Shown one piece after another: positions 32,183 through 34,506 of a stretch of DNA of 45,776 nucleotides. The position numbers and the translations under genes were made by a program. Every line of letters begins with the position of its first letter. The first letter of the stretch is position 1. The notes under the pieces are model-generated. The model was given only the letters and a program-made list of their open reading frames with translations. It ran no database searches and was not told the DNA's origin. The stretch spans positions 1 to 45,776 of the forward strand of contig CASDPF010000019.1 in the NCBI GenBank assembly GCA_949282215.1, given 5' to 3'. This DNA comes from an uncultured bacterium (GTDB taxonomy: Bacteria; Cyanobacteriota; Vampirovibrionia; Gastranaerophilales; Gastranaerophilaceae).

Positions 32183-32212
32183 TTGACAAAAATTTTTCTT
32201 TCGGTTTATACT
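32183..32212 (+). promoter_or_regulatory. Strong sigma70-type promoter
   Basis: A consensus TTGACA (32183-32188) and TATACT (32207-32212) are separated by 18 bp. Transcription would begin near 32219. It drives the structured RNA described at 32219-32382 and possibly the gene at 32408. Confidence 0.85.
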
Positions 32213-32218
32213 ACCTAC

Positions 32219-32382
32219 ATAGGAAAATTTATGATGAATTTATTTACTGCAAAATCTAATACCTCCTCCTCCACATCCAAGTACTTCGGGACTTGTATGA
32301 ATTTTGGCGTTTAGATTTTTTAAGCAGTAAAATTTATAATAGTATTTGAGTCCCGCATAAATATTTAAAGCGGGATTTTTTA
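32219..32382 (+). ncRNA. Candidate structured small RNA or attenuator leader
   Basis: It begins just after a strong promoter and ends at an intrinsic terminator. The outer stem pairs TTTACTGC (32243-32250) with GCAGTAAA (32324-32331), and ATCTAA (32254-32259) with TTAGAT (32311-32316). The enclosed region has an unpaired CCTCCTCCTCC (32262-32272), ideal for pairing with Shine-Dalgarno sequences. A small hairpin CAAGT-A-C(TTCG)G-G-ACTTG (32278-32295) is capped by a UUCG tetraloop. It also contains a 27-codon frame (32231-32314, SD AGGA), so a leader peptide is an alternative. No known RNA family was recognised. Confidence 0.55.
32351..32382 (+). terminator. Intrinsic terminator/attenuator before gene at 32408
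   Basis: TCCCGC (32351-32356) pairs with GCGGGA (32370-32375), followed by six or more T. Only 26 bp separate it from the next start codon, so there is no room for another promoter. The downstream gene therefore depends on read-through or on regulated anti-termination. Confidence 0.82.
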
Positions 32383-32407: not shown

Positions 32408-33958
32408 ATGAATTTAACAATTAACAATTATGATATAAGACACAGACAACCAAATTTCAACGGAATTTTAGACAGTGCATTGACAAGCGGATTAAAACTT
32501 CTTGATACAAATGAAATGGCAAATGCCGTGTTAATAGATGTAGGGGCAATGGTTGCTCCTCGTACTTATTACGATACGAAAGCGAGAAATAAAGATGCCG
32601 GTGCTGAAACTTTTTTCCGTGAGTTGAGCGGTACATTTATCAACTGTTTGTCTGCAGGGCTTTTAGGTATTGGTATTGCTAAAGTTGCAAACAACCGAGT
32701 TATGCCTGATGTTAAAATTAACTCTAATACTTGGTTCTCAAAAGATTCCATAAACGTTTTAAAGGCGGCTTGGGATAATGCTGATAATAATGTTGAAAAA
32801 TATGTCCAAAATGTTTTTGATAATCTTGGCGGTCGTGATTATAAGAATATTAAACATTTTAAAGATATTAATTGGAATAATGTTGAGTGGAATAACCAAG
32901 AAAATTGGAAGAAAATTTTCTGGAATAATGCAGGTTTTGTAGATCTTGATGAAAGATTAAAAACGAAAAACGGCATTGTGTCTACAATGACTCAATTAAT
33001 TAATGATAAAACTATAACCAAAAAAGATAAAGAAAATGTCTTAAAAATTATGCAGGCAAGAATTGCAAATGCATTAGGGGCAGAACGTGATATTCAGGTA
33101 AAAATTGGTGGACATACTCTTGGTGCTACTTTAGAAAATGTACTTCGCGATACTTTTGATATGGGTCGTAAAGTCTTTGCCAATAAAGATGTAGATATTA
33201 ATTTAGCATTGAAAAAAATCGGTAAAGTAAATAATATTAAAGTTTTTGGAGCTTTAGCCGGTGCTTCTGCTCTTGGACTTACAAACCAGTATATTAACAG
33301 AAAAATTACCGAAAAACGCACCGGTAAAAAAGGTTTTGTAGGGGATGTTGATTATGCTCAAAAAACTCTAGATGCTAAAAATGCTGAACCTAAAAAAGAA
33401 AAAAATCTATGGCTGAAAAAGCTCGCAGCAAGTGCAGGCATGATTGCTATGGTTATTGCTGTAATGAGAGTTAAAAATCCTAAGGATTTTGTAAAAAAAT
33501 TAGAATTTACAGGCCCTGTGACAAGCGGTAATGCTATTAAAACGGTATATGCTTCTACTATTGTCGGACGTTTCCTTGCTGCTGATAACAGTACTGAATT
33601 GAGAGAATCTGTTACTCGTGATTATTTCGGATTTTTAAATTGGCTTGTATTTGGCGGATTTGCTGCAAAAGGTGTTGCGAATATGCTTGATAAAGATTGC
33701 AAAGATTTATTCAATATTAAAAATGATGGAAAAGGTCTTAAACATTGGTTAAACGATTTGAGTTTAAAAACTCATGCTGAAATCGCAGCAAAGGGTGCAG
33801 ATTTCGCTAAGAAAAATATTTGGAAACTTAACGCTGCTCATATTGCTGGACTTGCATATTCAGCGATTACTCTTGGGGTTTTGCTTCCAATGATTAACGA
33901 TAAAATGACAAAATATAAAGCCCGCAAACAAAAGGAACAAACTGCTGTAGTCGCATAA
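32408..33958 (+). CDS. Lineage-specific membrane protein, unknown function
   Basis: A 516-residue protein. Hydrophobic segments lie at about residues 77-94 (INCLSAGLLGIGIAKVA), 275-290, 335-352 and 470-495, with charged stretches between. A Trp/Asn-rich motif repeats around 150-175 (INWNNVEWNNQENWKKIFWNN), suggesting a short tandem repeat. The N-terminus carries PNFNG at residues 15-19, resembling the FxG motif near the start of the amidohydrolases at 38278 and 43658. SD AAGGGA. It sits behind the intrinsic terminator at 32351-32382, so its expression is probably controlled by read-through. No known domain. Confidence 0.6.
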   Translation: MNLTINNYDIRHRQPNFNGILDSALTSGLKLLDTNEMANAVLIDVGAMVAPRTYYDTKARNKDAGAETFFRELSGTFINCLSAGLLGIGIAKVANNRVMPDVKINSNTWFSKDSINVLKAAWDNADNNVEKYVQNVFDNLGGRDYKNIKHFKDINWNNVEWNNQENWKKIFWNNAGFVDLDERLKTKNGIVSTMTQLINDKTITKKDKENVLKIMQARIANALGAERDIQVKIGGHTLGATLENVLRDTFDMGRKVFANKDVDINLALKKIGKVNNIKVFGALAGASALGLTNQYINRKITEKRTGKKGFVGDVDYAQKTLDAKNAEPKKEKNLWLKKLAASAGMIAMVIAVMRVKNPKDFVKKLEFTGPVTSGNAIKTVYASTIVGRFLAADNSTELRESVTRDYFGFLNWLVFGGFAAKGVANMLDKDCKDLFNIKNDGKGLKHWLNDLSLKTHAEIAAKGADFAKKNIWKLNAAHIAGLAYSAITLGVLLPMINDKMTKYKARKQKEQTAVVA

Positions 33959-33981: not shown

Positions 33982-34506
33982 ATGGAAATTTATTATATTG
34001 ATACTGAAAAATTTCTAAAGTCCCATGATACCGATTTTCTTAGGAGATTTTTAGATGGAAAAGAATTTAAATCCCTAAAGCGTTTTGTCCAATATTCTAT
34101 CGGGCGTTATCTTGTCAAATCTGTCGCTAAAGTTGTTTATAATTTGTCAGATACCGAAATTATTATAGATAATGATAAACCAAAATTTAAGAATGGCGGA
34201 GTCTTTTTTAGTATATCTCATAGCGGGAATTATGTTGCTGCTGCTTTTGATAATTCACCTTGCGGGCTTGATATTGAGGAAATGAAGCCTCGAGATTTTG
34301 AAGCACTTTCTGCTCGTTATGAAAAAGATTTTCAAACTGCAGAGGATTTTTATAAGTTTTGGACTGAATATGAAGCTGAAATTAAGCTGCAGCAAAAAAC
34401 ACAGGCATCTTATACCTGCGTTTTTCATGAAAATTTTATTTTAACAGCGGTTTCTGCTAATCCTACTTTTTCACAGCCATCTTGTATAAGTCATTTCGAC
34501 GCTTAA
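33982..34506 (+). CDS. Sfp-type 4'-phosphopantetheinyl transferase
   Basis: A 174-residue protein. VFFSISHSGNYVAAAF (about residues 74-89) holds the conserved SxSH, CGLDIEEM (about 94-101) holds the Mg-binding Asp/Glu, and FYKFWTEYEAEIKL (about 122-135) corresponds to the WxxKEAxxK motif with Tyr in place of the first Lys but Glu and Lys kept. It transfers 4'-phosphopantetheine from CoA to a carrier-protein Ser. It lies 2.7 kb beyond the APE operon and is the obvious candidate to activate its two ACPs. The 3' end overlaps the convergent ABC-F gene by 44 bp. Confidence 0.82.
   Translation: MEIYYIDTEKFLKSHDTDFLRRFLDGKEFKSLKRFVQYSIGRYLVKSVAKVVYNLSDTEIIIDNDKPKFKNGGVFFSISHSGNYVAAAFDNSPCGLDIEEMKPRDFEALSARYEKDFQTAEDFYKFWTEYEAEIKLQQKTQASYTCVFHENFILTAVSANPTFSQPSCISHFDA

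Follow-up and report, generated by a model that had tools for sequence, protein, structure and literature searches.

A putative transcription attenuator with serine or cysteine control codons upstream of an orphan gene in Gastranaerophilales

The window, by which we mean the whole stretch of 45,776 nucleotides analysed here (contig CASDPF010000019.1, assembly GCA_949282215.1, an uncultured member of the Gastranaerophilaceae), carries a gene for a 516-amino-acid orphan protein that is preceded by a short leader element (Table 1). A divergent neighbour of 275 amino acids, weakly similar to phage families that include a baseplate hub, lies on the other side of the leader, and a possible 4'-phosphopantetheinyl transferase, scoring under the curated cut-offs, follows 23 nt after the gene. 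An earlier note on this DNA had described a near-consensus promoter, a long-range stem, an exposed CU-rich CCTCCTCCTCC, a UUCG hairpin and a GC-rich terminator 26 bp before the next start codon, and each of these was found where it had been placed, with the end of the terminator GAGTCCCGC...GCGGGATTTTTT 26 nt upstream of the ATG at 32408. This terminator was missed by a terminator scanner because the scanner has a loop limit of 8 nt and the loop here is longer. Six promoter-like sites were counted in the 1.8-kb region versus 7.4 expected, and only the quality of the leader promoter stands out; TTGACA-like boxes were also recognized by reading upstream of most of the relatives' leaders. Folding of the 200-nt RNA was better than that of 200 out of 200 shuffles (z = -3.73). 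The most telling feature, absent from the earlier note, is CGGGACTT within the leader ORF, which repeats the 3' arm of the terminator.

Table 1. Features of the leader element, the gene behind it and the adjacent genes, in positions of the window.
Feature	Position	Strand	Basis or remark
Divergent neighbour, 275 amino acids	31300-32127	-	weakly similar to phage families
Leader promoter, TTGACA-18-TATACT	32183-32212	+	11 of 12 consensus matches
Candidate ribosome-binding site for the leader ORF, GGAA in AGGAAAA	32222-32225	+	judged from the sequence
Leader ORF of 27 codons, MMNLFTAKSNTSSSTSKYFGTCMNFGV-stop	32231-32314	+	second ATG at 32234; counterparts in relatives
CU-rich CCTCCTCCTCC	32262-32272		
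Putative sensor codons UCC UCC UCC ACA UCC (the C-rich loop of the earlier note)	32264-32278	+	UCC bias; replaced by Cys codons in the sister clade
Region 1 (CAAGU), partner of ACUUG in region 2	32278-32282	+	pairing in Ser leaders; covariation in Cys leaders
UUCG hairpin	near 32278-32295		
Region 2, CGGGACUUG, repeat of the 3' arm of the terminator	32287-32295	+	duplex tests, covariation
TTTTG-N-TGTGTA-like element	32300-32314		candidate pause site
Region 3, GAGUCCCGC, terminator 5' arm and antiterminator partner of region 2	32348-32356	+	covariation
Region 4, GCGGGAUUU, and U tract, intrinsic terminator	32370-32381	+	in Ser leaders, pairing in 99.1% of cells and double changes at 7 of 8 pairs
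Putatively regulated gene, 516-amino-acid orphan protein	32408-33958	+	same gene behind the leader in 12 of 12 nearest relatives and in wider sets
Possible 4'-phosphopantetheinyl transferase	33982-34506		under curated cut-offs

The orphan protein is mostly helical in an AlphaFold model (pLDDT 80.3, pTM 0.80), and three of its stretches exceed the hydrophobicity cut used for membrane helices. Sequence searches of Pfam, NCBIfam, PHROGs and the PDB and Foldseek searches of the PDB and BFVD led to no usable match. A membrane pyrophosphatase was considered as a fold match and rejected, as the best Z of 6.5 in VIA-align (rmsd 4.1 over 138 residues) is within the common range of this tool. We therefore claim no function for the protein, which has no recognised link to Ser or Cys metabolism. 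It is part of a larger paralog family (32408-33958 of the window, G000:C1:128624-129925), often with 2-4 hits per genome, many of which carry an N-terminal F-[KGN]-G motif. The gene neighbours differ between genomes, so that leader and gene look like one unit. At loci L048, L057, L040, L082, L051, L055, L036 and L035 the neighbours include MnmA, a pyridine nucleotide-disulphide reductase with rhodanese, an iron-dependent repressor, ferritin, a flavin reductase-rubredoxin and a nitroreductase; they lean towards sulphur, redox and iron functions and are not conserved.

A DNA search of 99 genomes, including that of the window, gave 12 genomes with E below 1e-6, and the leader was located upstream of the same gene in all of them. 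Orthologs detected by protein search occur throughout family f1 and in a few genomes beyond it within the order, and the other orders of the class showed weak partial matches only, in 2 of 17 genomes. The named records that bear the gene are mostly Candidatus Gastranaerophilales/Melainabacteria or MAGs, and a record of Candidatus Scatousia excrementigallinarum carries it at 87% identity. Records titled uncultured Brachyspira sp. (L245, 65% identity) and uncultured Acinetobacter sp. (L269, 61%) also carry the gene; these names are probably wrong. A leader run was defined as at least three Ser or Cys codons out of six in an ORF starting with ATG and not longer than 45 codons, and such runs were detected in 68 of 72 ortholog upstreams and 31 of 32 upstreams of a second set, as compared with 41 of the 320 windows used as controls and 2 of the 19 upstreams of paralogs. 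With at least four of six codons the counts were 60/72, 31/32, 8/320 and 0/19 respectively. The second set has no 40-mer in common with the first, 48 of its 80 loci having been removed for a shared 40-mer, and contains one locus (L266) without a true leader. The paralogs are approximately 28-39% identical, and 19 of their 20 upstreams were used, L350 being omitted as its sequence was from downstream of the gene. Outside the run the leader peptide is variable (GTCMNFGV, TELT, SGLE, RGR, GGTY), and the peptide as such is therefore not the conserved object. In the sets examined the element always stands directly upstream of the same gene, and when poly-Cys runs were sought elsewhere (54 runs in 50 hits with fetched loci), leader-like runs were found only in leaders already known.

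The codon run of the leader shows a pronounced bias. The 193 run codons of 36 Ser leaders comprise 115 UCC, 60 UCA, 10 UCU, 5 UCG, 3 AGC and no AGU, and AGY codons thus account for 3/193 run codons versus 591/2051 Ser codons in 67 downstream genes, which contain 135 UCC. The long ORFs of the window hold 49 UCC and 230 AGY among 823 Ser codons, and in the window UCA is used more often than any other Ser codon. The run allows more freedom at the third base of its UCN codons (C 182, A 114, T 12, G 2; n = 310 codons). Ser runs frequently include a Cys codon (SSSSCK), and in half the family, the Cys leaders, the CU-rich stretch is replaced by UGU/UGC runs. Genes for tRNA-Ser(GGA) and tRNA-Cys(GCA) are present in the genome. 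Among the tRNA-Ser anticodons of G000, GCU, CGA and GGA were found, and tRNA-Ser(UGA) was not seen, possibly because it is absent from the draft assembly. A bias among synonymous control codons is a known property of attenuators (PMC1183508, in part), and the preference found here echoes the pattern in B. subtilis, in which ribosomes become denser on UCN and Cys codons, and not on AGY, under serine starvation (PMC3862929, in part).

An intrinsic terminator is located between the leader ORF and the gene, and its 5' arm (region 3) can also pair with the tail of the leader ORF (region 2), so that antiterminator and terminator are mutually exclusive. The duplex energy of region 3 with the ORF tail, extended 15 nt past the stop codon, was better than that of mononucleotide shuffles (p ≤ 0.05) in 52 of 60 leaders (34/36 Ser, 18/24 Cys), with 8 of 60 not reaching this level, and in 30 of 31 leaders of the second set. 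Twelve of the 72 leaders had been omitted from this analysis as they had no trusted run or terminator (L054, L057, L064, L065, L069, L071, L072, L074, L075, L096, L100 and L106); inspection by eye showed Cys codons at the expected place in all except L106, with only two adjacent Cys codons in L071, no ATG in L096 and a shortening by the contig end in L072. Removal of near-copies led to 60 of 91 leaders (40 Ser, 20 Cys) in alignments A3 and A4. Here, the 2:3 antiterminator was paired in 96.6% of cells for the Ser leaders and 90.6% for the Cys leaders, in both cases with double changes at 5 of 8 pairs and a covariation score reached by 0/500 shuffles, which keep the relatedness of the rows; this and the following counts are supportive and are not probabilities. 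The score dropped when the partner was slid; in the Cys set a slide of +1 still left 66.9% pairing and double changes at 6 pairs. The terminator score of the Ser leaders (Table 1) was also reached by 0/500 shuffles. Regions 1 and 2 were paired in 95% of cells of the Cys leaders, with double changes at 4 of 6 pairs (0/500 shuffles), and in 82.3% of cells of the Ser leaders, where no covariation was detected. The features of the earlier note do not all carry equal weight: the UUCG loop was retained in just 5 of 91 leaders, and the long-range stem outdid shuffles (p ≤ 0.05) in 3 of the 8 near relatives, in 18 of the 55 remaining Ser leaders and in 4 of the 28 Cys leaders. The same note had proposed a search of Rfam and of related genomes for covariation. 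The covariance models of Rfam gave no match in the element, and a single weak snoRNA match, below the threshold, fell outside the leader; the relatives did yield compensatory changes, in the antiterminator and terminator.

Ser and Cys leaders also divide the downstream proteins. A tree of 67 orthologous proteins contained 65 labelled genes (32 with a Ser leader and 33 with a Cys leader), which were separated by one change; the unlabelled rows are L138, on a very long branch from another family of the order, and L129, with an upstream Cys run lacking an ATG. Six labels of the upstream set were assigned by hand (Cys for L069, L071, L072 and L075, none for L096 and L106). At least one genome (G236) has a gene copy of each leader kind. 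Among the 20 residues, Ser and Cys are the most unequal between the proteins of the two clades (Ser clade/Cys clade 0.60 and 3.6 respectively), a result to be read as one evolutionary contrast, as the rows are related and p-values are not independent tests. The proteins of the Ser clade contain 4.37% Ser and 0.59% Cys, those of the Cys clade 7.23% Ser and 0.16% Cys, and 20 paralogs 7.55% Ser and 0.52% Cys, i.e. the proteins of each clade are depleted in the residue whose codon the leader would sense. A protein made under shortage of an amino acid is expected to spare that residue, and both shifts are therefore in the expected direction.

The ORF and its codon run are conserved, both of the mutually exclusive helices show compensatory changes, the run codons are biased, and the division into Ser and Cys leaders is accompanied by reciprocal shifts in protein composition; on these grounds the element is very probably a ribosome-mediated transcription attenuator of the trp type, with Ser codons in the window and Cys codons in relatives, that controls the orphan protein. 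Coding, covariation and distribution speak for two suggestions of the earlier note, namely that the 27-codon frame encodes a leader peptide and that the RNA, as an attenuator, may gate the gene at 32408. From the sequences we infer the stalling of the ribosome, the amino acid as signal and the direction of the switch as follows. The promoter would start a transcript in which the UCC-rich Ser codons of the leader ORF come just before region 1. With plentiful charged Ser-tRNA the ribosome would clear the run and depart, after which region 1 would pair again with region 2, or the ribosome itself would cover region 2; with region 2 unavailable, region 3 would pair with region 4 and RNA polymerase would halt at the U tract before 32408. 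The expected attenuated product is a terminated transcript of about 160 nt. When charged Ser-tRNA is scarce, the ribosome would stall on the last Ser codons and cover region 1, so that region 2 could capture region 3 while region 4 is still to be made, and transcription would continue into the orphan gene. In the sister clade the same device would read Cys codons. The attenuator thus probably turns the gene on when Ser, or Cys in the relatives, runs short.

These ribosome states were modelled by folding the RNA with transcription stopped before region 4, with a pairing probability of region 3 with the ORF tail above 0.5 for a stalled ribosome and below 0.2 for a ribosome at the stop codon taken as switching. 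The window showed values of 0.01 without ribosome, 0.71 when stalled and 0.13 at the stop. The medians for 28 Cys leaders were 0.10, 0.74 (with the ribosome placed at the final Cys codon) and 0.00, and 26 of them switched in this model; those for 63 Ser leaders were 0.10, 0.55 and 0.05, and only 19 of 63 switched in the model. The simple occlusion model fits the Ser leaders less well than the Cys leaders. Many Ser leaders have their stop codon about 18 nt past region 2, and a ribosome at the stop may therefore not cover region 2; termination in such leaders would depend on ribosome release and the 1:2 hairpin. Equilibrium folding with the complete terminator showed no switch, the terminator winning at the median in every ribosome state, and the order of co-transcriptional folding would thus be essential. 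Downstream of region 2, most Ser leaders carry a TTTTG-N-TGTGTA-like element, of which the Cys leaders show a looser form; this element may be a pause site of RNA polymerase that synchronises ribosome and polymerase. Further points against the attenuator are the lack of covariation in the 1:2 helix of the Ser leaders, the 8 of 60 leaders whose 2:3 duplex did no better than shuffles, the missing link of the orphan protein to Ser or Cys metabolism, and the finding that none of the serA, cysE and cysKM homologs of the genome has such a leader upstream.

The Cys codons admit a variant of the attenuator in which both leader types report the supply of serine: cysteine is made from serine, so Cys codons would slow too, and the Ser/Cys exchange would be a change of read-out only. 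This is in line with the response of UCN and Cys codons, not AGY, to serine starvation in B. subtilis (PMC3862929, in part), with the Cys codon often found within Ser runs, and with the presence of serA, cysE and cysKM homologs in G000. We nevertheless consider it rather unlikely, because the proteins of the Cys-leader clade avoid Cys and not Ser, suggesting that they are synthesised under a shortage of Cys itself.

Other readings dispense with amino-acid sensing. The genetic layout would be identical in a leader of the erm, SecM or TnaC kind, in which a nascent peptide stalls the ribosome on a small molecule, a drug or a membrane-insertion state, and a short peptide before a gene product with stretches hydrophobic enough for membrane helices would suit it. 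As the peptide is not conserved outside the run and follows the RNA pairing there, and as neither the swap of Ser for Cys nor the preference of UCC over synonymous AGY is predicted by an effect of the peptide, such an arrest is very improbable. The earlier note had named first a trans-acting sRNA whose exposed CU-rich loop binds GGAGG sites, i.e. SD sequences, of target mRNAs. An own promoter and terminator and the occurrence of CCTCC in 53 of 63 Ser-leader segments agree with it, but the stretch turned out to be a Ser codon run with a freer third base, a conserved CCUCC loop was not found, as the Cys leaders of half the family have UGU/UGC runs without CCUCC instead, and the antiterminator covaries in an element that always precedes the same gene in the sets examined; an sRNA of this type is scarcely credible. 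Much the same doubt falls on the idea that the ORF encodes a small protein rich in Ser or Cys with a function of its own, as a microprotein or a modified peptide, and that the terminator is no more than its 3' end: the ORF is indeed kept in place and frame, but its C-terminal residues track the RNA pairing, region 2 mirrors the terminator, and neither the UCC bias nor the constant position before the same gene would be expected, which makes this explanation extremely doubtful.

Returning to the attenuator, we find it plausible, without quite favouring it, that the make-up of a starvation protein has co-evolved with its sensor: serine shortage would switch on a serine-avoiding protein in one clade, and cysteine shortage a cysteine-avoiding protein in the other, and the protein may serve starvation in general and not the synthesis of Ser or Cys. 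If so, a single cell, as possibly that of G236, may carry serine-limited and cysteine-limited editions of one protein. The amino-acid sparing by starvation proteins would be testable here in a natural two-way comparison. The usual view of an attenuator links it to a single amino acid and to the pathway of that amino acid; here, one device before an orphan gene appears to have swapped the sensed amino acid once between two gene clades, and the protein composition follows. An orphan family in uncultured gut relatives of Cyanobacteria thereby gains a handle, as its protein should be made when Ser or Cys is short.

The literature searched, mostly outside subscription papers, contained no poly-Ser attenuator. 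Serine sensing by UCN and not AGY codons is described for sinR of B. subtilis (PMC3862929, in part), where the codons are within the coding region of the repressor, without leader, antiterminator or terminator. The mycobacterial polycysteine attenuators (Canestrari et al., 2020, as described in part of PMC9031893) share contiguous Cys codons in a short ORF and control of a downstream gene by cysteine supply, but are described as regulating translation of downstream genes, with leaderless ORFs; the element studied here has an intrinsic terminator, and its sister clades differ in using Ser or Cys codons. The uORFC-8-2 motif before cysS in Rhodobacterales (PMC8632094, in part) also combines tandem Cys codons in an upstream ORF with a terminator and two prominent stems, with proposed sensing of charged tRNA-Cys; it differs in lineage, gene and number of tandem Cys codons (two versus 3-4 or more here), and no Ser version is described in the available part of that source. 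The trp/his/thr/leu-type attenuators (PMC1183508, in part) have in common with the present element a run of control codons in the leader ORF, the division into regions 1-4, an exclusive antiterminator and terminator and the bias among synonymous codons, the difference being that the gene here encodes an orphan protein instead of a recognised biosynthetic enzyme and that control is by Ser codons, or by Cys codons in the sister clade.
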